Shown here one piece after another: positions 11,348 to 35,058 of a stretch of 41,821 nucleotides of DNA. Below the pieces are notes generated by a model, which was not told the DNA's origin, made no database searches, and saw nothing but the letters and a program-made list of their open reading frames with translations. The stretch comes from Pseudomonadota bacterium (GTDB lineage Bacteria; Pseudomonadota; Gammaproteobacteria; Steroidobacterales; Steroidobacteraceae), in the NCBI GenBank assembly GCA_947453065.1, contig CANGFJ010000004.1:1-41821 (forward strand), given 5' to 3'. The position numbers and the translations under genes are program-made. Position 1 is the first letter of the stretch, and every line of letters starts with the position of its first letter.

Positions 11348-11496
11348 CGGGCTGATTGTTGCGTAATGCCAACGGTCCGGTACGGGCCGTGGGCTTGCCT
11401 TAGCCCTGCACCCCATGGTCTGATCAGTCCATGCTTTGACCTTTAACCGGGTCTTGGCTCCAAGAACAAAAAACAATGGTCAAAAAGGGAAACTGC

Positions 11497-13920
11497 ATGA
11501 ATTCCAATCAGAAATGGTCGGTTGCTTTCGCTGTCCGTCTTGCCTTGGGTCTGGGTCTTTCCGGCGTCGTCATGGCTGCCGCGCCGCCCGCAAAGCCGGC
11601 TGCCACCGGCGATGCCCTCGATGAGATTGTCGTCACCGCACAGTTCCGCGAGCAGAACCTGCAGGACACGGCACTGGCGATCACGGCCATGTCGGCTGCG
11701 CTGCTGGAGTCGCGCAACCAGACCAACATCACCGAGATCACGAACCAGGCCCCGAACGTCACGCTGAAGCAGCAGGGTGCCAACTTCGGTCCGGCCATGG
11801 CCGCCTCGATCCGCGGCGTCGGCCAGGGTGACTTCAACCCAGCCGTCGAGCCGGGCGTCGGCATCTATGTTGACGATGTGTACTACGCCACGCTCACCGG
11901 TTCGGTGCTCGACCTGCTCGACCTCGAGCGTGTCGAGATCCTGCGCGGCCCGCAGGGTACGCTCGCCGGCAAGAATTCGATTGGTGGAGCCGTCAAGCTG
12001 TACTCCAAGCAGCCCAAGGGCGATGACACGGGCTCGATCCAGGCGACCTACGGTTCCCGCAACCGCATGGACCTGCGCGCCAGTGGCGACTTCGCCATCA
12101 CCGACACGCTCTTCGCCCGCGTTTCGGGCGTCAGCAAGAAGCAGGAAGGCTACGTTGATCGCGTGGATTATGGCTGCGCATTTCCGGGCAACCCCTACGG
12201 CATCCAGGCGACCCGTGCCACGGGCCACGGTTGCGTCGTTGCACGCGATAGCAATGTGGACTTCAGCGCCGTGCGTGCTTCGTTGCGCTGGCTCGCCAGC
12301 GACAACCTGGAGTTCAACCTGTCCGGTGACTACACCGCCGACCACCGCAACCCGACTGGCATGGTCCTGCTCGATTACGGCACTCGGTCCGCGGCCAACA
12401 TTGCCAACGTCGCGGCCGTCTATGACAACAACCCGGCGAACGACGCCCAGGGCAAGGCATTCGTTCCGCCTGCCGGTTCGTACTACAACTATGCGACGTT
12501 CAGCAATGCTGCCGGTACCTACAATGGCTACATCCCGGTAGGGGGAGCGTATGCCACCCAGTACAACGGTTCCCTGCTGACGAACTACACGCTGACCCCC
12601 TCCGTGTCCGTTCCGCGCATGTGGTTCGACGGTGGTGGCGGCTCGCTGGGGATCGACTGGAAGATCAGCGACACGATGTCTGTGAAGTCGATTTCGGCTT
12701 ACCGCGAGTATCAGAGCGGTTTCACGAACGACAGCGACTGGTCGCCGCTGAGTGCCCAGCTGGGTGACGGCAACCTGCCGTTCCACTCGTTCAGTGAAGA
12801 GCTGCGCCTCAACGGCAACCTCGTTGGCGGCAAGCTGGACTACACCGTGGGTGGGTTCTTCATGGACCAGACCGCGCGGTACATGTCCTACCAGGACCTG
12901 CGTTACACCGGTAATTACCCGTTGCAGTTCCAGCAGAACGACATCACTAACTCCGATAGCAAGGCCGCATTTGTCCACACGAGCTACACCGCGACCGACA
13001 AGTTGTCACTGACGGCTGGCATTCGCTATACGAAGGAACACAAGGACTACACCTTCAGCCGGCTGAATCGTGATGGCACGGTGCATCCGTTCCTGGGTGG
13101 CCTCAATGGCGTGCGTAGCGACTACAACGGCAGCAATGTCGATTACCACGCGGCCGCCCAGTACCGCTGGAACGACGAGCTGATGACCTACCTGCAGTAT
13201 TCGACCGGTTTCAAGGGCGGCGGCGTCAGCCCGCGTCCCTTTGTTCCGTCGCAGGCCACGCCCTTCAATCCTGAAAAGCTGAACTCGCTGGAAGCCGGTG
13301 CCAAGACCGACTTCTTCGACCGCAAGCTGCGCCTGAATACGGCTGTGTTCTACAGCAAGTACAAGGACCTGCAGCTCGGTCTGCAGCTGTGCCCGACAGC
13401 GCCTTGCGGCAAGATCGCGAACGCAGGCGACGCCACGATCAAGGGTGTGGAGATTGAGGCAGTGCTGCGTCCGGTCGCGGGCCTGTCTATCGATGCCTCC
13501 TACAGCTACATCGACTTCAGCTACGATCGCCTGAGTTCGCAGGTCACCGCTTACAAACTCAGCTTCGTCGCACCCTGGATGCCGAAGCAGAAGTGGAGCA
13601 GCGGTGCGCAGTACGAGCTGGTGATGGGTGATGCGGGCACGCTGACACCCCGTGTCGACGTGAGCTACCAGGGTGGCCTCTACACCAACGGTAACAACCA
13701 GCCGACGAACTACATTTCGGCGTACACGCTGGCTAACGCCCGCGTCACGTGGCGGCCTTCCAGTGGCAAGTGGGAGTCGTCTCTTGAGCTGACCAACATC
13801 AACGACAAGTACTACCTGCAGTCGCGTGGTGACGCGTTTGCGGGTTCCGGTGCCGGCCAGACGGAAGGCCAGCCGGGTCGTCCGCGTGAATGGGCGCTGA
13901 CGGTGAAGCGTAAGTTCTGA
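11497..13920 (+). CDS. TonB-dependent receptor, paralog 1
   Basis: Signal peptide, TonB-box-like ALDEIVVTA, plug motif RGPQGTLAGKNSIGGAVKLYSKQP, C-terminal GRPREWALTVKRKF (terminal F). Start at ATG 11497 by comparison with paralog 2. Confidence 0.95.
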   Translation: MNSNQKWSVAFAVRLALGLGLSGVVMAAAPPAKPAATGDALDEIVVTAQFREQNLQDTALAITAMSAALLESRNQTNITEITNQAPNVTLKQQGANFGPAMAASIRGVGQGDFNPAVEPGVGIYVDDVYYATLTGSVLDLLDLERVEILRGPQGTLAGKNSIGGAVKLYSKQPKGDDTGSIQATYGSRNRMDLRASGDFAITDTLFARVSGVSKKQEGYVDRVDYGCAFPGNPYGIQATRATGHGCVVARDSNVDFSAVRASLRWLASDNLEFNLSGDYTADHRNPTGMVLLDYGTRSAANIANVAAVYDNNPANDAQGKAFVPPAGSYYNYATFSNAAGTYNGYIPVGGAYATQYNGSLLTNYTLTPSVSVPRMWFDGGGGSLGIDWKISDTMSVKSISAYREYQSGFTNDSDWSPLSAQLGDGNLPFHSFSEELRLNGNLVGGKLDYTVGGFFMDQTARYMSYQDLRYTGNYPLQFQQNDITNSDSKAAFVHTSYTATDKLSLTAGIRYTKEHKDYTFSRLNRDGTVHPFLGGLNGVRSDYNGSNVDYHAAAQYRWNDELMTYLQYSTGFKGGGVSPRPFVPSQATPFNPEKLNSLEAGAKTDFFDRKLRLNTAVFYSKYKDLQLGLQLCPTAPCGKIANAGDATIKGVEIEAVLRPVAGLSIDASYSYIDFSYDRLSSQVTAYKLSFVAPWMPKQKWSSGAQYELVMGDAGTLTPRVDVSYQGGLYTNGNNQPTNYISAYTLANARVTWRPSSGKWESSLELTNINDKYYLQSRGDAFAGSGAGQTEGQPGRPREWALTVKRKF

Positions 13921-14239: not shown

Positions 14240-16648
14240 ATGAACTCGAATAATTCCTTGCACGCTGGGCGTGCTTCCCGCGCGGTGGCCGTCGCCGTGC
14301 GCCTGGCGCTGGGCCTTGGCCTCTCTGGCGCTGTCCTGGCTGCCACGCCCGCCGCCTCTGGCGATGCCCTCGAAGAAATTGTCGTCACGGCGCAGTTCCG
14401 TGAGCAGAACGTCCAGAACACGCCGCTGTCGATCACGGCGATCTCCGGTGCCCTGCTCGAGGCGCGCAACCAGACCAGCCTGGTCGATGTGACCAATCAG
14501 GCACCGAACGTGACGCTGAAGCCGCAGGGGGCCGCGTATGGTCCGGCCATGGGCGCCTCGATCCGCGGCGTTGGCCAGTTCGACTTCAACCCGGCACTGG
14601 AGCCTGGCGTGGGCATCTATGTTGACGATGTGTACTTCGCCACGCTGACGGGTTCGATCATGGACCTGCTCGATCTGGAGCGCGTCGAGATCCTGCGCGG
14701 TCCGCAGGGCACGCTGGCTGGCAAGAACTCCATCGGTGGTGCGGTCAAGCTGTACTCGAAGAAGCCGGAGGGTGACGGCGGCTATGTGTCGGCCACCTAT
14801 GGCTCGCGTGAGCGCGTCGACCTGCGCGCCAGCGGTGACTTTGCCCTCAGCGACAGCCTGTTTGCCCGCGTCTCCGGCGTGAGCAAGCGCCAGAAGGGCT
14901 ACATTCAGCGCCGTGACTACGGCTGCGCCTTCCCGACCAGCGGCGTGCCCAACCTCGCGCCGGGCAGCAAGGACTGCGTCGTCGGTACCAACGGCGACGT
15001 CAACTACGACGCAGTGCGTGCGCAGCTGCGCTGGGTCGCCAGCGACAACGTGGAAGTCAGCGGTGCCGTGGACTACACGGACGACTACCGCAGTCCGGCC
15101 GGTGCGGTGCTGGTGCAGGGCTCGACCACGGTCAACCCGAATGCCCAGCCGGTGTTCGGTGCCGGTGGTACGGCCTTGGCTGCGTCGGCCTTCGTGCCGC
15201 CGGCCGGCTCCTATTACAACTACGCGACCTACTACAACCCGGCCGGTACGTTCACGAAGCTGTCGGCGCCTGCCGGCGCGACCACGCCGATGCTGGAAGG
15301 GCGCCCGGAAATTGCGGTGCACTACACGGGCTGGGGCGCAGCGGGCAACATCAACTGGAAGCTTAACGACACGCTGTCCGTGAAATCTGTCAGCGCCTAC
15401 CGCGAATACGACAGCTACTTTGCCAACGACAATGACCTCTCGCCCCTTGCCAGTTCCCTGGGCTGGGGTAACTTGACGTTCCATTCGTTCAGTGAAGAGC
15501 TGCGGCTCAACGGCGCAGCGCTGGCCAACGATGCCCTGGAATACACCGTTGGCGGGTTCTACATGAACCAGACTTCGGTCTACAGCACGGCACAGGACCT
15601 GCGCTATTCCACTGCCTCGCTGACGCAGTTCGTTGGCAATGACCCGGTTCGCGCCGACACCAACGCGTACTTTGCCCACGTCTCGTACAAGGCCACGGAC
15701 AAGCTCACGCTCACCGGTGGCCTGCGTTACACCGACGAGCACAAGGACTACACGTTCTCGCGCCGCACCTATGCCGGTGCGCTGCATCCGACGCTGGGCG
15801 CGCTCGATGGCTTCACCAGCAACTACAACGGCAACAAGCTCGATTACCGCGCCAACGTGCAGTACCAGTGGACCGATAGCCTGATGACCTACGCCCAGTA
15901 CGCCACGGGGTTCAAGGGCGGTGGCGTTTCTCCGCGGCCGTTCTCCGCAGCGCAGGCCATCTCGTTCAATCCCGAGGAGATGAAATCCTACGAAGTGGGC
16001 GTGAAGTCCGACCTGTTTGAGCGCACGGTACGCATCAACGCATCGGCCTTCCTCAGCAAGTACTCGGATCTGCAGTTGGGCCTGTCGACCTGCCCCGTGC
16101 AGTACGCGCCGGTTTCACCCTGCGCGATCATCACGAATGCCGGCAACGCCGACATCAAGGGCTTCGAGCTGGAAACGGTGCTGCGTCCGGTGGATGGTCT
16201 CTCCATCGATGCGTCCTACAGCTACCTAGACTTTGAGTACAAGCGCTTCAACCAGTACGCCGGTGGCACGACCAACCTGCGTGGTCCGCAGTTCGGCATG
16301 CGCCCGGCCTACGTGCCGAAGCTCAAGTGGAGCGTTGGCGCGCAGTACGAAATTGGCCTGGGTGACAAGGGCACGCTGACGCCGCGCGTTGACTTCAGTC
16401 ATCAGGGTGAGCTGTTCTCGAATAGCTTCAATGCGGCGACCAACCGCATCGACGCGTATTCGTTGGCCAATGCCCGCCTGACCTGGCGTGGTGGCAAGGG
16501 GGATTGGGAGTCGTCGTTTGAGGTGACTAACCTCACCAACAAGTACTTCTTCCTGACCCGTTTCGACCAGTTCACCACCACGGGTGTGACGGACGGGCAG
16601 CCGGGTCGGCCGCGTGAAGTGGCGCTGACGGTAAAACGCAAGTTCTGA
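14240..16648 (+). CDS. TonB-dependent receptor, paralog 2
   Basis: Strong similarity to paralog 1 throughout; ALEEIVVTAQFREQNVQNTPLSITAIS; RGPQGTLAGKNSIGGAVKLYSKKP; ends ALTVKRKF. Confidence 0.95.
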   Translation: MNSNNSLHAGRASRAVAVAVRLALGLGLSGAVLAATPAASGDALEEIVVTAQFREQNVQNTPLSITAISGALLEARNQTSLVDVTNQAPNVTLKPQGAAYGPAMGASIRGVGQFDFNPALEPGVGIYVDDVYFATLTGSIMDLLDLERVEILRGPQGTLAGKNSIGGAVKLYSKKPEGDGGYVSATYGSRERVDLRASGDFALSDSLFARVSGVSKRQKGYIQRRDYGCAFPTSGVPNLAPGSKDCVVGTNGDVNYDAVRAQLRWVASDNVEVSGAVDYTDDYRSPAGAVLVQGSTTVNPNAQPVFGAGGTALAASAFVPPAGSYYNYATYYNPAGTFTKLSAPAGATTPMLEGRPEIAVHYTGWGAAGNINWKLNDTLSVKSVSAYREYDSYFANDNDLSPLASSLGWGNLTFHSFSEELRLNGAALANDALEYTVGGFYMNQTSVYSTAQDLRYSTASLTQFVGNDPVRADTNAYFAHVSYKATDKLTLTGGLRYTDEHKDYTFSRRTYAGALHPTLGALDGFTSNYNGNKLDYRANVQYQWTDSLMTYAQYATGFKGGGVSPRPFSAAQAISFNPEEMKSYEVGVKSDLFERTVRINASAFLSKYSDLQLGLSTCPVQYAPVSPCAIITNAGNADIKGFELETVLRPVDGLSIDASYSYLDFEYKRFNQYAGGTTNLRGPQFGMRPAYVPKLKWSVGAQYEIGLGDKGTLTPRVDFSHQGELFSNSFNAATNRIDAYSLANARLTWRGGKGDWESSFEVTNLTNKYFFLTRFDQFTTTGVTDGQPGRPREVALTVKRKF

Positions 16649-16667: not shown

Positions 16668-16684
16668 CCCACTTGACTGTGAAG

Positions 16685-16712
16685 CGGGGGCCACGAGGCC
16701 CCCGTTTTTTTT
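16685..16712 (+). terminator. Rho-independent terminator of TonB receptor 2
   Basis: cgggggcc-acga-ggcccccg followed by T8. Confidence 0.93.
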
Positions 16713-16777
16713 GGGCAGCCGGGGCTGGCGGGATACACTCCCGCCAAGCCATTGACTGGCTTGTCCAAGGATGTCGC

Positions 16778-17617
16778 ATGACGGATCCGTCTTTGCCCCT
16801 GTTGATTGCGGTGGCGCCTACCGGCGCGCGCAAGCGCAAGATCGACCATGACGCCCTGCCGATCGAGCCCCGGGAGATCGCCCTCACGGCGGCCCGCTGC
16901 CGCCTGGCGGGGGCCGGCATGCTTCACCTGCACGTCCGGGACGAGCAGGGTGAACACAGCCTGTCGCCGGTTCGTTACCGTGAAGTGCTGCAGGCGGTGC
17001 GAACGGTGGCAGGCAGTGAACTGCTGGTACAGATCAGCACCGAGGCCTGCGGCCAGTACAGCCTGGAACAGCAGATGGCCACGGTGCGTAACCTCAAGGT
17101 AGACGCCGCGTCCTACGCCCTGCGGGAGTTTTTCCCGGGTGAGGTCGTGGATCCGCGCGTCGTGGAGTTCTTTGCCTGGGTGACGGGGCTTGGCGTGGGG
17201 GGGCAGTTCATCCTGTACACCCCCGCGGAACGGGACCGGCTGCAGGCGCTGGTAGCCCGGGGCATCATCCCGGCAAAACGCCCGCACGCCTTGTTCGTGC
17301 TGCCCCGGCACGGCGCGAACCCGCAGTCTGATCCGGCTGACCTGCACGCCTTCCTGCAGGGCTGGCCGTCTGACTGGCCCTGGAGTGTTTGCGCGTACGG
17401 GCCTTCCGAGCTTGCGGTGGCCGAGCTCGCGATCCGGCTCGGCGGGCATGTGCGCGTCGGCTTCGAAGACAATCTCTACGATGTGGATGGCGAACTGCTC
17501 GAGAACAACGAGGCGCGCGTGCGCCAGGTGGCTGAGCTGGCAGCCAGGGCGGGTCGCCCGCTGGCAACGCCCTCGCAGATACGGGGCCTCTTCGCCGCAC
17601 AGGACGCGGCATACTGA
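16778..17617 (+). CDS. DUF849 / beta-keto acid cleavage enzyme (BKACE) family protein
   Basis: LLIAVAPTGARK, AGAGMLHLHVRDEQGEHSLSP (HxH), VRVGFEDNLYDVDGELLENNEARV, RPLATPSQIRGLF. Start moved from 16673 because the extension reads through the preceding terminator. Confidence 0.85.
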   Translation: MTDPSLPLLIAVAPTGARKRKIDHDALPIEPREIALTAARCRLAGAGMLHLHVRDEQGEHSLSPVRYREVLQAVRTVAGSELLVQISTEACGQYSLEQQMATVRNLKVDAASYALREFFPGEVVDPRVVEFFAWVTGLGVGGQFILYTPAERDRLQALVARGIIPAKRPHALFVLPRHGANPQSDPADLHAFLQGWPSDWPWSVCAYGPSELAVAELAIRLGGHVRVGFEDNLYDVDGELLENNEARVRQVAELAARAGRPLATPSQIRGLFAAQDAAY

Positions 17618-24823: not shown

Positions 24824-26299
24824 ATGGACGATTCCGCCGTCATCGAGTCACGCCCCGAGGTCATTGACGGCCTGCGCCGCCTGTTGCCCGCGCGGGCGCT
24901 GCTGGTGGCGGCCGAAGACACCCGTCCCTATGAGTGTGATGGCCTCACGCTGATCCGCCAGCGGCCCATGGCCGTGGCGCTGCCCGAGACCGAGGCGCAG
25001 GTGGTGGCCATCCTCAAGCTCTGCCACGCGCACCAGGTGCCGGTGGTGCCGCGAGGCGCGGGCACCGGCCTGGCCGGCAGTGCCTTGCCCCATGCGGGCG
25101 GCGTGCTGCTGTCGCTGGCGAAGTTCAATCGCATCCTGGGGGTCGATCGTCGTGGCCGCACGGCCACCGTGCAGCCGGGCGTGCGCAACCTGGCCATCTC
25201 CGAGGCGGCGGCCCCGTTCGGGCTGTACTACGCGCCCGATCCGTCCAGCCAGATTGCCTGCACCATCGGCGGCAACGTCGCCGAGAACTCCGGTGGCGTG
25301 CACTGCCTCAAGTACGGCCTGACCCTGCACAACGTGCTGCGCGTGCGCGGCTACACTTCGGCCGGCGAGCCGGTGGAGTTCGGCAGTCTGGCCCCCGACG
25401 CCGCAGGGCTGGACCTGCTGGCACTGGTGATCGGCTCCGAGGGCATGCTCGCCCTCACGACCGAGGTCACGGTGCGACTGGTGCCCCGGCCCACCGTGGC
25501 CCGCTGCCTCATGGCCAGTTTTGCCGATGTGGGCGATGCCGGTGATGCGGTGGCTGCCTTGATCGCCGCGGGCATCATTCCCGCCGGGCTCGAGATGATG
25601 GACCAGGCCGCCACGCGGCTGGTCGAGCCCTTTGCCAAGGCCGGCTATGACCTGGAGGCCGCCGCGGTGCTGTTGTGTGAATCCGATGGCACGGTCGACG
25701 AAGTGGAAGCAGAAATCGCCCACATGAGCCAGGTGCTGCGCGACGCCCGCGCCACGCGCCTGCAGGTGTCCACCAGCGAGGCCGAGCGCCTGACGTTCTG
25801 GGCCGGTCGCAAGAACGCCTTTCCGGCGGCGGGCCGCGCGGCGCCCGCGTACTACTGCACCGATGGCACCATCCCGCGCAAGCACATCGGCCAGATGCTC
25901 AAGTCCATCCAGGCCATGGAACAGCGCTTTGGCCTGGCCTGCCCGAATGTGTTCCATGCCGGCGATGGCAACCTGCATCCGCTGGTGCTGTTTGATGACA
26001 GCGACCCGGACTCGGTCGCGCGTGCCGAGGCCTTTGGCGCCGAGATCCTGGAAGAGAGCGTGCGCCTGGGCGGCACCGTCACCGGCGAGCATGGCGTGGG
26101 CGTCGAGAAGCTCAACCAGATGTGCTCGCAGTTTGACCGTGCCACGCTCGATGCCTTCCTCGGCGTGAAGCGCGCCTTCGATCCGGCTGGCACCCTGAAC
26201 CCGGGCAAGGTCATCCCGTCGCTGCATCGCTGCGCCGAATATGGCCGCCAGCGCGTGACAGGCGGCGCCGTCTCGTTTCCCGACCTGCCGCGCTTCTGA
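24824..26299 (+). CDS. glcD: Glycolate oxidase FAD-binding subunit GlcD
   Basis: VPVVPRGAGTGLAGSALPHAGGVLLSL, FHAGDGNLHPLVLFD, GTVTGEHGVGVEKL, AFDPAGTLNPGKVIP. Confidence 0.95.
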   Translation: MDDSAVIESRPEVIDGLRRLLPARALLVAAEDTRPYECDGLTLIRQRPMAVALPETEAQVVAILKLCHAHQVPVVPRGAGTGLAGSALPHAGGVLLSLAKFNRILGVDRRGRTATVQPGVRNLAISEAAAPFGLYYAPDPSSQIACTIGGNVAENSGGVHCLKYGLTLHNVLRVRGYTSAGEPVEFGSLAPDAAGLDLLALVIGSEGMLALTTEVTVRLVPRPTVARCLMASFADVGDAGDAVAALIAAGIIPAGLEMMDQAATRLVEPFAKAGYDLEAAAVLLCESDGTVDEVEAEIAHMSQVLRDARATRLQVSTSEAERLTFWAGRKNAFPAAGRAAPAYYCTDGTIPRKHIGQMLKSIQAMEQRFGLACPNVFHAGDGNLHPLVLFDDSDPDSVARAEAFGAEILEESVRLGGTVTGEHGVGVEKLNQMCSQFDRATLDAFLGVKRAFDPAGTLNPGKVIPSLHRCAEYGRQRVTGGAVSFPDLPRF

Positions 26300-27375
26300 T
26301 GCACGACATCCTCCGCACATTCGCCGAGCGCGTACAGGCCGCCGCGGCCGCGCGCACGCCGCTGTGCCTCCGCGCAGGCGGCACCAAAGACTTCTACGGC
26401 AACACCCCGCGTGGTGAGATCCTCGACCCGCGGGTCTGGTCCGGCATCGAGGACTACGAGCCCAGCGAACTGGTCATGACCGTTCGCGCCGGGACGCCGC
26501 TGGCCGAGGTGGAAGCCACCTTGGCCGCGCAGGACCAGATGCTGGCCTTCGAACCGCCGCACTTCGGTGCCGGTGCGACCCTCGGCGGCTGCGTGGCCGC
26601 GGGCATTGCGGGGCCGCGCCGTGCCTCGTCCGGTTACACCTATGGCAGCCTGCGCGATTTCGTGCTGGGCACGCGCCTGCTGGATGGCCATGGACGCCTG
26701 CTGCGCTGCGGTGGCACCGTCATGAAGAACGTGGCCGGATACGACGTCTCGCGCGTGCTGGCAGGGTCACTGGGTGTGCTGGGTCTGATCGTCGACGTGT
26801 CGATCAAGGTGCTGCCGCGGCCGCGCGCCGAGGCGACGCTGCAGTTCGAATGCGATGAGCCCACCGCGCTGGACCGGCTCAATGACTGGGGCGGCGAGCC
26901 GCTGCCCCTCTCGGCCAGTGCCTGGCAGGACGGGTGCCTGCGGCTGCGGCTCTCCGGGTCCGAGGCAGGCGTCAGGTCGGCCGTGCTTCGCCTCGGGGGT
27001 GAACGTCTGCCCGAAGCCGTAGCCCAGGCCTACTGGCAGGACGTGCGCGAGCAGTCCCTGCCGTTCTTTGCGGGCAACACGCCGCTGTGGCGCATTGCCG
27101 TGCCGTCTACGGCCGAACCTCTGGCGCTGGAAGGCGCGATGCAGGTGGAGTGGGGCGGTGGCCAGCGCTGGCTGCGCAGTGACCTTCCAGCCGCCGACAT
27201 TCGCGCCAGGGCGCAGGCACTGGGTGGCCATGCCACGCTGTTCCGCGGCGGTGATCGGGGGCAGGGCGTGTTCACGCCGCTGTCGCCTGCCTTGCACGCC
27301 ATTCACCAGCGCCTGAAGGCGGAGTTTGATCCCGCCGGCGTGTTCAACCCTGGCCGGCTGATCCGGGACCTATAG
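26299..27375 (+). CDS. glcE: Glycolate oxidase FAD-binding subunit GlcE
   Basis: LRAGGTKDFYGNTPRGEILD, FGAGATLGGCVAAGIAGPRR, FDPAGVFNPGRL; between glcD and glcF. Confidence 0.95.
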   Translation: MHDILRTFAERVQAAAAARTPLCLRAGGTKDFYGNTPRGEILDPRVWSGIEDYEPSELVMTVRAGTPLAEVEATLAAQDQMLAFEPPHFGAGATLGGCVAAGIAGPRRASSGYTYGSLRDFVLGTRLLDGHGRLLRCGGTVMKNVAGYDVSRVLAGSLGVLGLIVDVSIKVLPRPRAEATLQFECDEPTALDRLNDWGGEPLPLSASAWQDGCLRLRLSGSEAGVRSAVLRLGGERLPEAVAQAYWQDVREQSLPFFAGNTPLWRIAVPSTAEPLALEGAMQVEWGGGQRWLRSDLPAADIRARAQALGGHATLFRGGDRGQGVFTPLSPALHAIHQRLKAEFDPAGVFNPGRLIRDL

Positions 27376-27381
27376 CCCCTT

Positions 27382-28575
27382 ATGCAGACCACCCTCGCGC
27401 CCGCATTCCAGAACCGCCCCGATGCCCAGGAGGCGGCCGCGCTGCTGCGCAGCTGTGTGCACTGTGGCTTCTGCTCGGCGACTTGCCCGACCTACCAGAT
27501 CCTGGGCGATGAGCTCGATGGCCCCCGTGGCCGGCTGTATCTCATGAAGCAGGTGCTGGAGGGGGATCGTCCCACTGCCAAGACGCGACTGCATCTGGAT
27601 CGCTGCCTGACCTGCCGTGCCTGCGAGACAACCTGTCCGTCGGGCGTGCAATACGGCCGCGTGCTCGACACGGGTCGGCAATTGGTGAACGAGCAGCTGC
27701 CGCGACCGCTGCTGTCGGGGCTTGTCCGGCGATTGCTCGCTGTCTGGCTCACGGGCCCGCTGTTCGCGCCCGCCGTGGCCATGGGCCGGCTACTTCGCGT
27801 CCTGCCAGCGGCACAAGCCGCTGGCGTCGTGCCGCATCGCCTTCACGCGCGTCGCATGCTGTTGCTGGCCGGCTGCGTGCAGCCTGCGCTGTCGCCCAAT
27901 ATCAACGCGGCCACGCTGCGTGTGTTCGATGCGCTGGGCATTACGTTGCAGGTGGCGCCGGATGCCGGCTGCTGTGGCGCCATTCGCCATCACCTCGACG
28001 ACCACGATGGCGCGCTCAGCGAGGCCCGTCGCAACATCGATGCCTGGTGGCCGGCGGTGGAGGCGGGCGCCGAGGCCATTGTGCTGAATGCGTCGGGCTG
28101 CGGCACGATGCTGCACGAGTACGGCCATCTGCTGCGGCATGACGCCGCCTATGCCGCGAAGGCCGCGCGCATCAGTGCGCTGGTGCGCGATGTGGCCGAG
28201 GTGCTGCCAGCGCTGGTGGGCCAGTTGGCGCCGCGATTGCGTGAACGCCAACCTCAGCGCGTGGTTTTCCACCCGCCCTGCAGCCTGCAACACGGACAAA
28301 AGATTCGCGGTGCTGTCGAATCAATGCTGACGACGCTGGGCGCCGAGGTGCTGCCCTTTGCCGATGCGCACTTGTGCTGCGGTTCTGCGGGCACTTACTC
28401 GCTGCTGCAGCCGCAGCTCTCGCGCGAGCTGCGGGATCGCAAGCTTGCCGCGCTGGGTGCGCCCCGGCCCGAGGTCATCCTGTCTGCCAACATCGGCTGC
28501 CTCACCCACCTGGCCGGCGGCACGCCGCTGCCCGTCCAGCACTGGATCGAATGGCTGGACGCGCAGTTGGCCTGA
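27382..28575 (+). CDS. glcF: Glycolate oxidase iron-sulfur subunit GlcF
   Basis: CVHCGFCSATCPTY and CLTCRACETTCPSGVQYG 4Fe-4S motifs; CCG motifs. Confidence 0.96.
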   Translation: MQTTLAPAFQNRPDAQEAAALLRSCVHCGFCSATCPTYQILGDELDGPRGRLYLMKQVLEGDRPTAKTRLHLDRCLTCRACETTCPSGVQYGRVLDTGRQLVNEQLPRPLLSGLVRRLLAVWLTGPLFAPAVAMGRLLRVLPAAQAAGVVPHRLHARRMLLLAGCVQPALSPNINAATLRVFDALGITLQVAPDAGCCGAIRHHLDDHDGALSEARRNIDAWWPAVEAGAEAIVLNASGCGTMLHEYGHLLRHDAAYAAKAARISALVRDVAEVLPALVGQLAPRLRERQPQRVVFHPPCSLQHGQKIRGAVESMLTTLGAEVLPFADAHLCCGSAGTYSLLQPQLSRELRDRKLAALGAPRPEVILSANIGCLTHLAGGTPLPVQHWIEWLDAQLA

Positions 28576-28578
28576 CGC

Positions 28579-30585
28579 TTACTTGCCGGTCACCGGATTC
28601 ACATAGTGATACGGCGGCAGGAAGCCCTTCGGATACATGTCGAAGTGGAACGAGGGCGGCCGGTCCGGCGGATTCGACTCGGTGATGCCCGGTGCGGCAC
28701 GCTGGTTGATGTCCTTCCAGCCGATGTCATAGGGCGTGAAGTAGGTGTTCATCACCTGGTCCTTGTGGAACTTCCAGACGCCGTTCACCTTCACGAGCTG
28801 GTTCTCGTAGATGCCGCCCATCCACATGCCGGTCTTGCCGAAGTTGCCCAGCATGCTGAGGGCGCGTGAACGCAGTTTCGCGCTCTGGCCATCGTCGGCG
28901 ACATCAATCACCGGCTGGTACTGCATGTGGTTGTGCAGGACGCCGTCGTCCAGGCCCGCCTGGCCGTAGAGGTTGAGGTTGCGACGGACGGCGGGCTTGC
29001 CCACGTAGATGCCGCGCAACGCGATCTCGATCGTGCCGTTGTCGTCGAACAGGTCGGTGAGCGCGTCCCATTGCAACGTGGCCAGGTAATAGCCATAGGT
29101 CATCTGCAGGTTCTCGACCTGCGCCACATCCTCCACGCGGCTGAGCTGGTGCTCGATGCTGGCCAGACGCGCCTGCAGGGTGGCCTCGTCCCGCGCGGCC
29201 CTGTGTGCAGAGGTGGCCTGCGCCCTTGTCGGCCGTGGTCCGGTGACCGGATGCCCATAGTGGAAGGGCACCGTAAAGCCCACGTCATAGGTGCTGGCCT
29301 TGCCGCGTGCCGGCACGTCAGGCGGCAACGCGGGCTCCATGCGGGAGTGGGGCAGGGACTGCTTGCCCCAGCCTGTTTCATAGGGCGTGATCATCGTCGG
29401 GTACAGGTGCAGGTGGCGGATCTTCCACACGCCGCCTTCTTTCACATAGTCGTTTTCGTAGACGCCCGTGCCCCATTCATGGAACACGCCCGCCTTGGCG
29501 AACTGCGCGAACCAGCGCCAGCGGCCCTTGGCGCTGCGACCGTCGGGGGCAACATGCACGATGGGCTGCAGTTGCATGTTCTCGTGCAGCAGGCCTTCGA
29601 GCTGGCCTTCTGGCCCGATCGCGCGCAGGTAGTTGAGCACGTGGGCCTGGCCGCGGTACGTACCACGACCGGCGATTTCGATACTGCCATCGTCAGTGAA
29701 CAGCGCCGCCGCCTGTTGCCACTGTGACTTGTCGATGTAGTAGCCGTAGATGCGCTGCAGCTTCTCGATGTCGTTCTGGTCGGCCAGGCGTTGCACATCG
29801 GCAGCCAGCTGCGCCACGCGGCGCGCCAGCACGGCGGGTGTTGTGGTGGCGGCCGCGGCCGCGGCCGCGGCGGGCGCTACCGTGGCGGCCACGCGCGTTA
29901 CGCCGGTGAAATGGAACGGCGGCGTGTAGGCGCCCGGCCAGGTCTTGTAGCGAATGCTGGGCGGGGCATCGGCCTTGAGCCTGTCGCCCACGAACTGTCC
30001 GCCGTTGACGTCGCCATGTTGCGTCCAGCCGCCGTCATAGGGCACGTACAGCGTCTGGAACCAGTGCAGGCGCTGGATCTTCCAGACGCCGTTTTCCTTG
30101 ACGTAGTCATTCACGAACGGGCCTTCGCCCCAGTACGCGTCCTTGCCCAGTTGCCCGGCCAGGATCACATCGCGCCAGGTGCCTTTGGCGCTGAGGCCAT
30201 CGGCGGAGAGGTCGACCACCGGCATCAGCTGCAGGTGTTCATTGAGCTGGCCCGGTTTGAGGCCTGCCTTGCCCTGGCCGAGTGCATAGAGGTACTCGCG
30301 CACACGCGCTCGTCCCTGGTAGACCCCATCCAGGCCCAGTTCGATCGAGCCCGCGTCGCTGAAGAGCTGGGCCACGTCATCCCAGCGCGCCTTGTCCACG
30401 TAATAGCCATAGGCGCGCTGCAGCCGCTTGATGGCGTTGACGTCCTCGGCCCGCGTGGCGCGCTGCTCCAGTTGCGCCAGGCGCCCGGTGAGGGCTGCGT
30501 CCACGCTGGCCTGTGCGGGTGCTTGCACGATGAGGCTGGTGCCCAGGGCGAGAAGCACGCAGGTCACGATGTGAAGTCGTTTCAT
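28579..30585 (-). CDS. Exported SnoaL/NTF2-like protein with three tandem ~200-aa units
   Basis: Signal peptide MKRLHIVTCVLLALGTSLIVQAPAQA; three copies of [LQxxYGYY ... VKxxGVWKI ... PPFHY] with YGYY near aa 59, 280 and 497. Confidence 0.85.
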   Translation of the reverse strand: MKRLHIVTCVLLALGTSLIVQAPAQASVDAALTGRLAQLEQRATRAEDVNAIKRLQRAYGYYVDKARWDDVAQLFSDAGSIELGLDGVYQGRARVREYLYALGQGKAGLKPGQLNEHLQLMPVVDLSADGLSAKGTWRDVILAGQLGKDAYWGEGPFVNDYVKENGVWKIQRLHWFQTLYVPYDGGWTQHGDVNGGQFVGDRLKADAPPSIRYKTWPGAYTPPFHFTGVTRVAATVAPAAAAAAAATTTPAVLARRVAQLAADVQRLADQNDIEKLQRIYGYYIDKSQWQQAAALFTDDGSIEIAGRGTYRGQAHVLNYLRAIGPEGQLEGLLHENMQLQPIVHVAPDGRSAKGRWRWFAQFAKAGVFHEWGTGVYENDYVKEGGVWKIRHLHLYPTMITPYETGWGKQSLPHSRMEPALPPDVPARGKASTYDVGFTVPFHYGHPVTGPRPTRAQATSAHRAARDEATLQARLASIEHQLSRVEDVAQVENLQMTYGYYLATLQWDALTDLFDDNGTIEIALRGIYVGKPAVRRNLNLYGQAGLDDGVLHNHMQYQPVIDVADDGQSAKLRSRALSMLGNFGKTGMWMGGIYENQLVKVNGVWKFHKDQVMNTYFTPYDIGWKDINQRAAPGITESNPPDRPPSFHFDMYPKGFLPPYHYVNPVTGK
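29849..29870. repeat. Hexanucleotide repeat (GCGGCC)x3 plus partial unit, encoding an Ala-rich linker between units 1 and 2 of the triple NTF2-like protein
   Basis: Direct reading: gcggccgcggccgcggccgcgg. Confidence 0.85.
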
Positions 30586-31970
30586 TTACCAGTCACCGGG
30601 TTCGCATAGTGGAAGGGCGGGATGAAGGGCGCCGGGTAGGGGTCGTAGGCCACCGACTGCGGCAGATCAGGCGGATAGCCGGCGAAGGGCGCGAACATGC
30701 CGGCCGAGTGCTTGGCCCAGCCCCCGTCATAGTTGGTGTAGAAGGTCTGGAAGCCGTTGAGGTTCTGGTACTTCCAGACGCCGTTTTCCTTGATGAAAAC
30801 GTTCTCGTACACGCCTTCGCCCCACTGTGCGGCCCGCTCGTACAGGCCGTACATCACGAACAGGCGCGCGCGCACCTTGGCCGAATTGCCGTCCGGGGCC
30901 ACGTCGACCACCGGCTGCAGCTGCATGTGGTTGAAGAGCGTGCCAAAGGTCGGTGCACCCAGGCGGCGCATGTACTCGTACACGCGGTCCCGCCCGATGA
31001 ACACACCGCGCCCCAGGATCTCCAGCGTTGCGTTCTCGGCAAACAGCGCCGAGATCGCATCCTGCATCGACTTGTCGGCGTAGTAGCCGTAGGTGTTTTC
31101 CAGGTTCTCCACGTCGTCGGTGGCCTTCAGGCGCTCGATCTTCAGTTCCAGCGCGCGCACCTGGGCCTCCAGCTCAGCGACGCTCTTGGGCCCGGTCGGT
31201 GCCGTGGCGACTGTCAGGCTGGCAGGCACCAGCTGGTACGCCGACTGCGCCGGGTTGTCGTAATGGAAGGGCACGACGAACTGTTCGGGGTAGGGCTTGT
31301 ACGCCACCGTCGTGGGCCGCGTCGGCTTGACGCCCGACTTGCCGAAACGCAGCGCGCTGTCGGCGCTGGCCCGCGTCCAGCCGCCCTCGTAGGGCGCATA
31401 GAACTTCACATACAGGTGCAGCGTGCGGATCTTCCACACGCCGCCTTCCTTCGCGTATTCGTTCTCGTAGACCCCCGCGCCCCAGTTGCCGCCCGAGCCG
31501 GCACCGAAGATGCCGTCCTGGATCACCGTGCGCCAGCGCGCCTTGGCGCTCTGGCCATCGGCAGACAGCGTGATGACCGGCGAGAGCTGGAACTGGTTGT
31601 TCAGCTGCGCCTTCAGCAACCCGGACTTGCCGCCCGTCAGGCTGTAGAGGTACTTGCGCAGGTTCGCCTTGCCGGCATACACGCCGTTGAGGCCCAGCTC
31701 GATGCTGCCGTCCTCGGTGAACAGGTCCACCACCTGGTCCCACAGTGCCTTGTCCGTGTAATAGCCATAGATCTGCTGCAGGTTGCGCAGGTCGTTGTAG
31801 TCGGCAAGGCGGTCAGCCTGCTGTGAGATCGTGCTGATGCGCGTTGCGGCCTTGGCAATGCGCGGTGAAAGGTCGGGCTGTGGCGCCGGGGCCTGTGCAA
31901 AGGCCGTGACCTGGAAGAGCAGCGCGGCGCAGGCGCCGGCCAGTGCGGCAAAGCGGGTGGGCGTGTTCAT
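30582..31970 (-). CDS. Exported SnoaL/NTF2-like protein with two tandem ~200-aa units
   Basis: Signal peptide MNTPTRFAALAGACAALLFQVTAFAQA; YGYY at aa 68 and 294; ends PPFHYANPVTGK; ATGA overlap with the next gene. Confidence 0.85.
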   Translation of the reverse strand: MNTPTRFAALAGACAALLFQVTAFAQAPAPQPDLSPRIAKAATRISTISQQADRLADYNDLRNLQQIYGYYTDKALWDQVVDLFTEDGSIELGLNGVYAGKANLRKYLYSLTGGKSGLLKAQLNNQFQLSPVITLSADGQSAKARWRTVIQDGIFGAGSGGNWGAGVYENEYAKEGGVWKIRTLHLYVKFYAPYEGGWTRASADSALRFGKSGVKPTRPTTVAYKPYPEQFVVPFHYDNPAQSAYQLVPASLTVATAPTGPKSVAELEAQVRALELKIERLKATDDVENLENTYGYYADKSMQDAISALFAENATLEILGRGVFIGRDRVYEYMRRLGAPTFGTLFNHMQLQPVVDVAPDGNSAKVRARLFVMYGLYERAAQWGEGVYENVFIKENGVWKYQNLNGFQTFYTNYDGGWAKHSAGMFAPFAGYPPDLPQSVAYDPYPAPFIPPFHYANPVTGK

Positions 31971-31980
31971 GGGGCGCGCC

Positions 31981-32724
31981 TCAGTAGTCCCAGCCGACTG
32001 GCTTGCCAGTGACCGGGTTTAGGTAGTGATAGGGCGGCAGGAAGAAGTTCGGGAAGGACTGGTACTGCTGCGTGGGCGGCCGGTCGGGCGGCAGGTCGGC
32101 CAGGGGGCCGGCCACCGGGAAGACCTGCTTGTGCCAGCCCTGGTCATAGGAGCCCGACACCGTGGTGTACCAATGCAGCGTGCGGATCTTCCAGTTGCCG
32201 CCTTCCTTGATGTATTCGTTCTCGTAGGGGCCTTCGGTCCAGCGACCGTCCTCGCCGTGTACGCCACCCATGACGAGTGAGCGCCAGCGCGCTTTGGCCG
32301 TGCGGCCGTCGGCCGCGACGTGGATCACGCCCTGCATTGTTGGGGTCTCTCGAATCTCACCGGGCCTGAGCGCTGCCCCGCTGATGGCCAGGAATTGTTC
32401 GATGCGCTTCCGGCCCACGAATACCCCCTGCTGGGCGTATTCAATCGAGGCGCCCGGGTCGTTGGAGAACAGGTCGGCGGCCTCGCGGGCTAGGCCAGCG
32501 CTCACGTAATAGCCATAGGCCTGCTGCAGGCGTTCGATCGACTTGGAATCCTCGAGCAGTCCGACCTGGCGCTGCAGGGAGGCCAGCTTGGTCTCCAGAA
32601 TGGCCAGGCGGCGGTCGTCGTTGATGATGCGGCTGTCGGTGACGACCGGATCGCTGGCCAAAGCCTGCGCCGAGACGCAGCACAGCGTCGCCAGCACGGT
32701 CAGCCAGCGTGGCTGGATGTTCAT
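31981..32724 (-). CDS. Exported SnoaL/NTF2-like protein with one unit
   Basis: Signal peptide MNIQPRWLTVLATLCCVSAQALA; single unit LQQAYGYY ... YENEYIKEGGNWKIRTLHWY ... FFLPPYHYLNPVTGK. Confidence 0.85.
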   Translation of the reverse strand: MNIQPRWLTVLATLCCVSAQALASDPVVTDSRIINDDRRLAILETKLASLQRQVGLLEDSKSIERLQQAYGYYVSAGLAREAADLFSNDPGASIEYAQQGVFVGRKRIEQFLAISGAALRPGEIRETPTMQGVIHVAADGRTAKARWRSLVMGGVHGEDGRWTEGPYENEYIKEGGNWKIRTLHWYTTVSGSYDQGWHKQVFPVAGPLADLPPDRPPTQQYQSFPNFFLPPYHYLNPVTGKPVGWDY

Positions 32725-32907: not shown

Positions 32908-35058
32908 ATGAACGCCACACTGTCCCGTCGCCAGTTCGGAACGCTGCTGGGCATGCAGGCAGTGTCTGCGTCGGCTGTTTCGCTGTCAGGCAGTGCCAGT
33001 GCTGCAGCCCCCAACGCGTCATCCCAGCCATTGCCGCACTCGGCAGGCGGCTTCGGGCGCGCAGAGTGCGTCGCCCTGATTGCCGACTATTTCGGATGGG
33101 TTCATTCCTCGGACTACGTAGATGCCTACAAGGCCGTCCAGCCGACCTTCATCGATGTCACCCTGGGCGTCACGCCCTATGCCCGGCAAATCGAGACGGC
33201 GCTGGAAGCCGGCGTGCTCGGCAACGCACAGGGCTACTTCCGTCCCGCTGCCGCCATGTCCCGCGAGGATGCCGCCGATCTGTTCGTAAAGGCCTTCCAG
33301 ATTCCGCCTGCCAGCACCGATGCGCTGTCGGCCTTTGCCGATGCCCACCTCGTCAGCCTGCACCGCAAAGCCAGTGTCACGGCATTGGTGGCGGCCGGCT
33401 ATCTGAAGGGCAGCAGCGCGACGCGCCTCTCGCCCGCCGCCGCGCTCACCGGCAGTGAGGCCGCCGCCATCCTCCAACGCATCACCACAGCGCGGGTGTC
33501 GCCCCCGCAGGTGATGTGCAAGGCTGGCACCACCGCACCGCGCCGCTACGTCCGCATCACCACGCCGACCGCGGGCGCGACGATCCGCTACACCGTCACC
33601 TTCGATGGAAGCGAGCCCGCCGATCCCAGCACCGCGGCCGGGCAGGTGTATGACTTCACGGTCGATGGCGTCCTGCAGTTCGTCAATCCCTTGAGTTCGA
33701 CGACGGACACCAGGCTCTACCGCCTCAAGACTGTGGCGAGCAAGCCGGGCCTGGCCAGCAGCACCGTGCAGGAATTCCGCTGGTACATCGTGCGTCCGCA
33801 GCTGGGCAGCTTCCAGGCGAAGCTGATGCATGCCGGTTCGGACAGTGCGCCCACGGTGTGGAAGATCCACAACCCGGCGGAGTACTACCAGGCCAATGCG
33901 TACTACATCGAGGGCACCCAGCGCGGCCTGCTCTTTGATGCGGGCGAGTACGGCTACCAGAAGGGCAACCTCAAGACCTTCGTCGATACCCTGGCCACCA
34001 AACCGTATGACGTCGTGCTGGGCCACAGTCATCCGGATCACGCCGAACAGATCTACAACTTCACGTCGGCGGGCACCGGCCTGCACCTCTCCGCCATTGA
34101 GCGGGCAGGGCTCCTTGCCTCACCTCGCCCGGACTTCCAGTCAGCCGGCAAGGCCGCCCGGGTGCTGCAGGACGGCCAGGTGCTGGACCTGGGCAACGTG
34201 CAGGTCACCGCGTTCCAGATTCCCGGGCACACGCACGGCCTGACAACGATCATCGTGAACCAGACCGGCTGGGTCTACGGCTCCGACATGTGGGGTTGCA
34301 ACCGGCCTCATACGGCCGACACCACCCAGTACCAGGGCGTGAAGGTGGACCTGTTCCTGTCCCTGGTGCAGCAGTTGCTCGCCAATTACCGCCGTGCCAG
34401 TCACGTCGGCGAGGTGACGGCGCTCACCAATGCGCACCAGGAGACCTCCGTGGGACAGGTCTGCATCCAGAACTTCCTGCAGTGCTTCCAGCAGCTGATC
34501 GATGCGGGCAATGGCGTCTCGAAACCCTCGATCCGTGGGGGGCTGAAGGGCGGCGATCGCATGAGCATGGTGGGCGACATGTGGCGCGACCGGAACTGGA
34601 TGGCGATCGGCCCCATTGGCAAATACGCCGAGCCGGCGGATTACCTGAGCCGGCCCACTACGGCATATGCCTGTGGCGCCACGATCGACTACAACGCTGC
34701 AGGCGGCCACCTGAAGTACTCGGTCCTCAGCAACGTGGAGTTCGCAGGCGGTGAGTTGGTGGGGGTAGAGGTGTCCTGGAGCGCCCCGGCCAATGGCATC
34801 GCGAACCGTCAGTCTGGCAAGTTCGACCCTTGGACCTATGCCTACGCGGTCAGGGTGCCAGCCGGTACGCGCAGCCTGGCGATCAAACCCACGGCGATGT
34901 CGAACCGGATCCGGTCGATGAAGGTGGACGGCAAGGCGCTGAAGCAGGGCGCCAGCGCCACGGTGGCGGTCTCAGCGGGCAGCCGGATCACCGTAGAGAT
35001 TGTGTCCCCCGATGGCAGTTCGGCCAGCACCTACACGTTCACGATCGCGCTGGCCTAG
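32908..35058 (+). CDS. Tat-exported multidomain protein: SLH-like repeats, chitobiase-C-like segment, metallo-beta-lactamase fold, C-terminal cadherin-like beta-sandwich
   Basis: SRRQFGTLLG twin-arginine signal; SLH-like GYFRPAAAMSREDAADLF and GYLKGSSATRLSPAAALTGSEAAAIL; TPTAGATIRYTVTFDGSEPADPS; GHSHPDH plus IPGHTHG, GSDMWG, NAHQE; C-terminal beta-rich repeat. Confidence 0.8.
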   Translation: MNATLSRRQFGTLLGMQAVSASAVSLSGSASAAAPNASSQPLPHSAGGFGRAECVALIADYFGWVHSSDYVDAYKAVQPTFIDVTLGVTPYARQIETALEAGVLGNAQGYFRPAAAMSREDAADLFVKAFQIPPASTDALSAFADAHLVSLHRKASVTALVAAGYLKGSSATRLSPAAALTGSEAAAILQRITTARVSPPQVMCKAGTTAPRRYVRITTPTAGATIRYTVTFDGSEPADPSTAAGQVYDFTVDGVLQFVNPLSSTTDTRLYRLKTVASKPGLASSTVQEFRWYIVRPQLGSFQAKLMHAGSDSAPTVWKIHNPAEYYQANAYYIEGTQRGLLFDAGEYGYQKGNLKTFVDTLATKPYDVVLGHSHPDHAEQIYNFTSAGTGLHLSAIERAGLLASPRPDFQSAGKAARVLQDGQVLDLGNVQVTAFQIPGHTHGLTTIIVNQTGWVYGSDMWGCNRPHTADTTQYQGVKVDLFLSLVQQLLANYRRASHVGEVTALTNAHQETSVGQVCIQNFLQCFQQLIDAGNGVSKPSIRGGLKGGDRMSMVGDMWRDRNWMAIGPIGKYAEPADYLSRPTTAYACGATIDYNAAGGHLKYSVLSNVEFAGGELVGVEVSWSAPANGIANRQSGKFDPWTYAYAVRVPAGTRSLAIKPTAMSNRIRSMKVDGKALKQGASATVAVSAGSRITVEIVSPDGSSASTYTFTIALA

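Follow-up and report, generated by a model that had tools for sequence, protein, structure and literature searches.

An operon of exported NTF2-like proteins related to LdpA comprises two sets of three units

The operon described here is located on the minus strand (positions 28579-32724) of the first 41,821 nucleotides of contig CANGFJ010000004.1, assembly GCA_947453065.1, from a Pseudomonadota bacterium of the Steroidobacteraceae; this whole stretch is referred to as the window. In the order of transcription it comprises the genes A, B and C, which encode proteins of 247, 462 and 668 amino acids harboring one, two and three units of the same SnoaL_4/LdpA-like type. The arrangement is best read as "1+2 = 3, and 3", and not as one, two and three copies. 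We consider it reasonably likely that the products of the operon are two exported LdpA-branch enzymes with three units each, namely a heterotrimer formed by A and B and the single-chain trimer C, which probably act as cofactor-free lyases or dehydratases on aromatic compounds derived from lignin or humus.

Unit content and orthology

Gene A (31981..32724) encodes a signal peptide (MNIQPRWLTVLATLCCVSAQALA-) and a single unit. In gene B (30582..31970) the signal peptide is followed by the units B1 (31233..31856) and B2 (30585..31187), and in gene C (28579..30585) by C1 (29896..30498), C2 (29221..29832) and C3 (28582..29178). The Pfam profile SnoaL_4 (PF13577) matches A once, B twice and C three times (E = 4e-20, 2e-48 and 2e-77, respectively), with bit scores of 72, 164 and 257 compared to the curated cut-off of 24, and the six units align over their entire length of about 200 amino acids with pairwise identities of 36-46%. 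This unit pattern is far beyond chance. Thereby, the main observations of an earlier, sequence-only reading of the window were borne out, including the motifs common to all units, the export of the proteins, as all three carry Sec-type N-termini, and the tight packing of the genes, with 10 nucleotides separating A from B and the sequence ATGA shared by B and C. The same reading had pointed to NPVTGK at or close to the C-termini. This motif forms the exact end of B and C and is found near the end of A; however, the C-terminal tail is family-wide, with ...PMSFAHPVLGK as the version present in LdpA, and NPVTGK is hence not particular to the operon. None of the NCBIfam models names A, B or C, and a scan for promoters and terminators revealed nothing above chance.

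The relationship between the units was analyzed with a tree of 211 units, calculated with FastTree as well as with IQ-TREE using the Shimodaira-Hasegawa-like approximate likelihood ratio test (SH-aLRT). In the following, L and G numbers denote loci and genomes, respectively, and f6 a related family of loci. A, B1 and B2 group with the first, second and third gene of the loci L070, L131, L132, L133 and L134, where three single-unit genes are arranged in the identical order. The corresponding nodes are supported by FastTree values of 0.981, 0.998 and 0.999 and SH-aLRT values of 98.5, 99.4 and 99.7. Since A, B1 and B2 are thus orthologues of three separate genes, B is a fusion of what are two separate genes in f6, and A and B together form one set of three. 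Judged by the unit sequences, C is a second, independent set of three units, encoded by one gene in most genomes, by a 1+2 arrangement in L129 and by a 1+1+1 arrangement in L130. In other genera the two sets are found at separate loci, as shown by L065/L066 and L070/L069 in genomes G029 and G055. Consequently, the 1-2-3 series represents two adjacent sets of three and no duplication ladder. The stepwise duplication from one to two to three units proposed in the sequence-only reading was therefore abandoned, as the trees show no such nesting and C1-C3 form a set of their own. Likewise, deep alpha, beta and gamma classes extending across all sets were seen with FastTree but discarded, because IQ-TREE gives only weak support to these deep nodes (SH-aLRT 11-57); for this reason we claim orthology only within sets. 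The difference in gene order between C (1-2-3) and the L071-type sets (1-3-2) rests partly on these weak nodes.

The number three also prevails beyond this operon. The genome itself contains 19 unit matches on eight contigs. A census of 23 genomes yielded 53 complete multi-unit clusters, many of them at orthologous loci, which consist of one three-unit gene (29), three single-unit genes (1+1+1; 10), a 1+2 (3) or 2+1 (3) arrangement, the 1+2+3 arrangement (5) or two single-unit genes (1+1; 3). Thus, 50 of the 53 clusters contain three units or a multiple thereof (45 with three and five with six), and three contain two. The latter include L122, which comprises only A and B1; here, the B2 orthologue is encoded elsewhere in the genome, on a different contig (L128). 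No protein of the census exceeds three units, and each of its 11 intact two-unit genes has a single-unit gene as neighbor, none standing alone. A sixth 1+2+3 locus, L061, lies near a contig edge and is counted outside the five. Within the genus, the 1-2-3 arrangement is seen again and again, in six genomes at least. Part of the census served as a prospective test of the trimer idea on new genomes of two other families; here, 14 clusters contained three units and one did not.

Relationship to LdpA and predicted assembly

The solved proteins closest to A, B and C are the LdpA structures 8abt, 8abu, 8abv and 8abw, with E values of 1e-24 to 1e-33, as compared to 1e-4 or worse for other NTF2 enzymes. 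LdpA is an NTF2-family enzyme that acts on the beta-1 lignin dimer erythro-1,2-diguaiacylpropane-1,3-diol (erythro-DGPD), from which it produces lignostilbene and formaldehyde, and in the published route a lignostilbene dioxygenase acts next (PMC12997858, PMC11323797). AlphaFold2 modeling of the mature C protein, based on an alignment of 27 sequences, resulted in a confident fold, with a mean predicted local distance difference test score (pLDDT) of 92.7 and a predicted template modeling score (pTM) of 0.93. When this model was used for fold searches (Foldseek, VIA), the top PDB matches were all LdpA (E 1e-13, Z 17.5), followed by scytalone dehydratase-like proteins, BaiE and LinA. Hence, LdpA is the best match by both sequence and fold, well above other NTF2 enzymes, and Pfam profile, predicted structure and fold search agree that the units are NTF2/SnoaL-like, as had been surmised from the sequence.

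As the units of a set regularly add up to three, we propose trimers, in which A and B would form a heterotrimer and the three units of C would fold into a trimer on one chain. This three-fold assembly is suggested by the three-unit rule together with the pTM of C. B alone was modeled less well (pTM 0.74), which would be in line with a missing partner. In addition, inspection by eye of seven loci with split sets revealed a lipobox cysteine in exactly one gene per set, whereas the partners possess ordinary signal peptides. The putative lipoprotein is encoded by the third gene in L070 and L131-L134 and by the C1 gene in L129 and L130. A single lipoprotein gene per split set is expected if one anchor holds the whole assembly. 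The fixed-stoichiometry assembly considered in the sequence-only reading is judged likely, with three units per set.

That reading had also regarded the two-unit protein as a potential intramolecular dimer. In this scenario B would resemble Lsd19, A and C would form separate oligomers, and the sum of three would be a by-product of shared ancestry. Many NTF2 proteins dimerise, and the structure titles of Lsd19 and MonBI-MonBII provide examples of NTF2 dimers that are fused or paired. However, the sets hold three units, intact two-unit genes are invariably accompanied by a one-unit gene, and A plus B1 and B2 correspond to three separate adjacent genes. Moreover, homotrimers, for example LinA, are found among the closest enzymes, and the fused dimers Lsd19 and MonB (3rga, 4rzm, 9kw6) could be superimposed on the model of C, the protein covered by this comparison, with a root-mean-square deviation of about 15 A only. 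We therefore regard the dimer as very unlikely.

Alternatively, A, B and C could serve a single reaction as one six-unit complex, which would be either a hetero-oligomer or two paired trimers. In the genus the three genes are packed into one operon, and six loci have kept the 1+2+3 block, which would agree with this idea. It is nevertheless improbable, given that A/B and C reside at separate loci in G029 and G055, that G012 has A/B while no C-type set was found in this genome, and that, conversely, G414 has C while no A/B set was found there.

Active-site residues, neighboring genes and putative substrates

In the two separate trimers that we favor, the units appear to have diverged at the presumed active site. 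At the position corresponding to His97 of LdpA, A carries Thr, B1 Gln, B2 His, C1 His, C2 Asn and C3 His, and at the Asp position A carries Ser, C3 Ala and the other four units Asp. By analogy, the latter position probably corresponds to Asp25 of LinA, a homotrimer with a His73/Asp25 dyad within each cone (PMC3507683). Both residues are always present in the orthologues of B2 and C1. In contrast, the Asp is replaced by Ala in all C3 orthologues, the His is missing in most orthologues of C2, and A has lost both residues in the family of the window; the pair is kept in five of the six unfused f6 loci, with His changed to Tyr in L133. B1 carries the very residue introduced in the NaLdpA mutant H97Q, which according to the title of PDB entry 8abu was crystallised with erythro-DGPD. 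This pattern of retained and lost residues suggests a division of labor within each trimer. B2 and C1 would provide the His-Asp pair inside the NTF2 cone, and the units devoid of one or both residues would probably have a structural role or help to bind the substrate. The reaction would most likely be a cofactor-free elimination of water and/or formaldehyde, with lignin- or humus-derived aromatic alcohols as putative substrates in the periplasm.

The loss of His or Asp from several units would also be compatible with non-catalytic proteins that bind or carry hydrophobic aromatics delivered by TonB-dependent receptors. Such receptors are encoded near some sister loci, and non-catalytic versions have been described within the NTF2 superfamily (PMC3924330). 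However, at least one unit per set, B2 and C1, respectively, retains His and Asp in every orthologue, which speaks against lost catalysis, as this would not preserve the pair. We thus consider a mere carrier function rather unlikely.

With regard to the enzymes proposed here, the genes adjoining related sets provide hints to the substrate. The RPE65 family is the family of lignostilbene dioxygenases. Of the 11 interior loci with L050-type three-unit genes, 10 have an adjoining RPE65/carotenoid-oxygenase-family gene, which shares 68-90% identity with its L050 counterpart; often, a TonB receptor and an alpha/beta-hydrolase domain fused to the three-unit protein are encoded there as well. This neighborhood possibly represents an extracytoplasmic stilbene-type pathway. 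The C-type sets L129, L130 and L139 likewise adjoin RPE65-family genes (approximately 41% identical). Plasmid matches in Novosphingobium sp. RL4 and Sphingobium sp. V4 are single-unit proteins, each with an RPE65-family gene at a distance of about 4 kb. Near the operon at L057 (record CAIPVV010000002.1) a tannase/feruloyl esterase is encoded.

Substrates other than lignin-type aromatics, for instance steroid- or bile-acid-like compounds dehydrated in a BaiE-like manner or halogenated rings, keep some weight but appear doubtful. BaiE and LinA rank among the structural matches that follow LdpA, and one relative is labelled Steroidobacteraceae. Nevertheless, LdpA is clearly closer by both sequence and fold, and the neighbors of sister sets include the RPE65-family dioxygenases and the tannase/feruloyl esterase.

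Several observations weigh against two LdpA-like trimeric enzymes that act on lignin- or humus-derived aromatics. The clusters of the census are not independent, as many of the loci are orthologous, and the exceptional loci L080 and L094 each contain two closely related single units, which are paralogues. Identity to LdpA amounts to about 30-34%, and the loop insertions of LdpA are absent. The poorer model of B may be accounted for by its shallower alignment (13 versus 27 sequences). Finally, no stilbene dioxygenase gene is adjacent to the operon in the window.

Further features were observed in the surroundings of the operon and of its relatives. In the window, glcDEF-like genes (24824-28575, plus strand) are convergent with C, and at least four further genomes from the genus show the same synteny (GlcD matches in L057, L060, L062 and L087). 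A function deduced from glcDEF was dismissed, as these genes are convergent with the operon. On the other side, a divergent gene (32908-35058, plus strand) encodes an exported protein with a Tat-like SRRQFG signal, an S-layer homology domain, a metallo-beta-lactamase fold and a cadherin-like domain, the orthologue of which (62%) adjoins the operon in L059. These neighbors do not settle the substrate. Two TonB-dependent receptors (11476-13920 and 14240-16648, plus strand) are 36% identical to the receptor beside the L050 set and are followed by a BKACE gene (16673-17617). In genome G007, a carotenoid-oxygenase-family gene (L058:3638-5110, plus strand), 35% identical to that of L050, is convergent with C. 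The three-unit proteins of L050 (5032-8073), L068, L073, L074, L075 and L144 carry a C-terminal BD-FAE/Abhydrolase_3-like alpha/beta-hydrolase domain; their genes adjoin an RPE65-family dioxygenase gene, and several also a TonB receptor gene. Three-unit sets of a second type are accompanied by a pyrroloquinoline quinone (PQQ)/cytochrome c quinohaemoprotein dehydrogenase (L088, L089, L077, L052, L114, L118 and L135). This pairing occurs in gamma- and alphaproteobacterial genomes, including alphaproteobacterial 1+1+1 loci. In the PQQ-linked type, the His is lost at the first and usually at the second unit, and the third unit is intact.

Comparison with known NTF2 enzymes

The arrangement is real and recurrent, and proteins of the LdpA kind have so far been described only as single-unit proteins. 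We searched the literature for SnoaL proteins that are tandem, fused or heterotrimeric and retrieved none. We tentatively propose, at somewhat less than even confidence, that these sets constitute a hitherto undescribed class of exported NTF2 enzymes that are obligate heterotrimers. Three diverged LdpA-like units would always be present, as 1+1+1, 1+2, 2+1 or fused into one chain, with catalysis confined to one or two units and another naturally carrying the substitution of the laboratory LdpA mutant, and lignin or humic aromatics would be attacked outside the cytoplasm. If so, the sets would represent a natural experiment leading from a homotrimeric enzyme via a heterotrimer to one continuous chain. 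Split and fused counterparts could be compared between related bacteria, and it would be clearly predicted which active sites are live. Moreover, LdpA-type chemistry, so far described in sphingomonads, would be placed in an export pathway of Steroidobacteraceae-related bacteria. Dozens of uncharacterised enzymes encoded beside stilbene-dioxygenase-family and quinoprotein genes would then bear on the microbial turnover of lignin-derived carbon.

With LdpA (formerly LsdE), the erythro-DGPD gamma-formaldehyde lyase of sphingomonads, the units share the NTF2 core, the motifs YGYY and YENDYVKExGVWKI and the C-terminal tail, and the His97 position is kept in B2, C1 and C3. However, LdpA is a single-unit protein whose crystallised sequence lacks a signal peptide, whereas the proteins described here are exported, contain up to three units per chain and include units that look inactivated. 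PcfL, the phenylcoumaran gamma-formaldehyde lyase, opens phenylcoumarans and is 44% identical to LdpA (PMC11323797). It belongs to the same family and chemistry class, but its description mentions no multi-unit sets, be they split or fused. LinA, scytalone dehydratase and BaiE have the fold and cofactor-free eliminations in common with this group, yet they are built from identical subunits encoded by one gene, in contrast to the three different units, split or fused, found here. Finally, the epoxide hydrolases Lsd19 and MonBI-MonBII likewise comprise naturally fused or paired NTF2 domains, though two instead of three, and their packing is unlike that of the C model.

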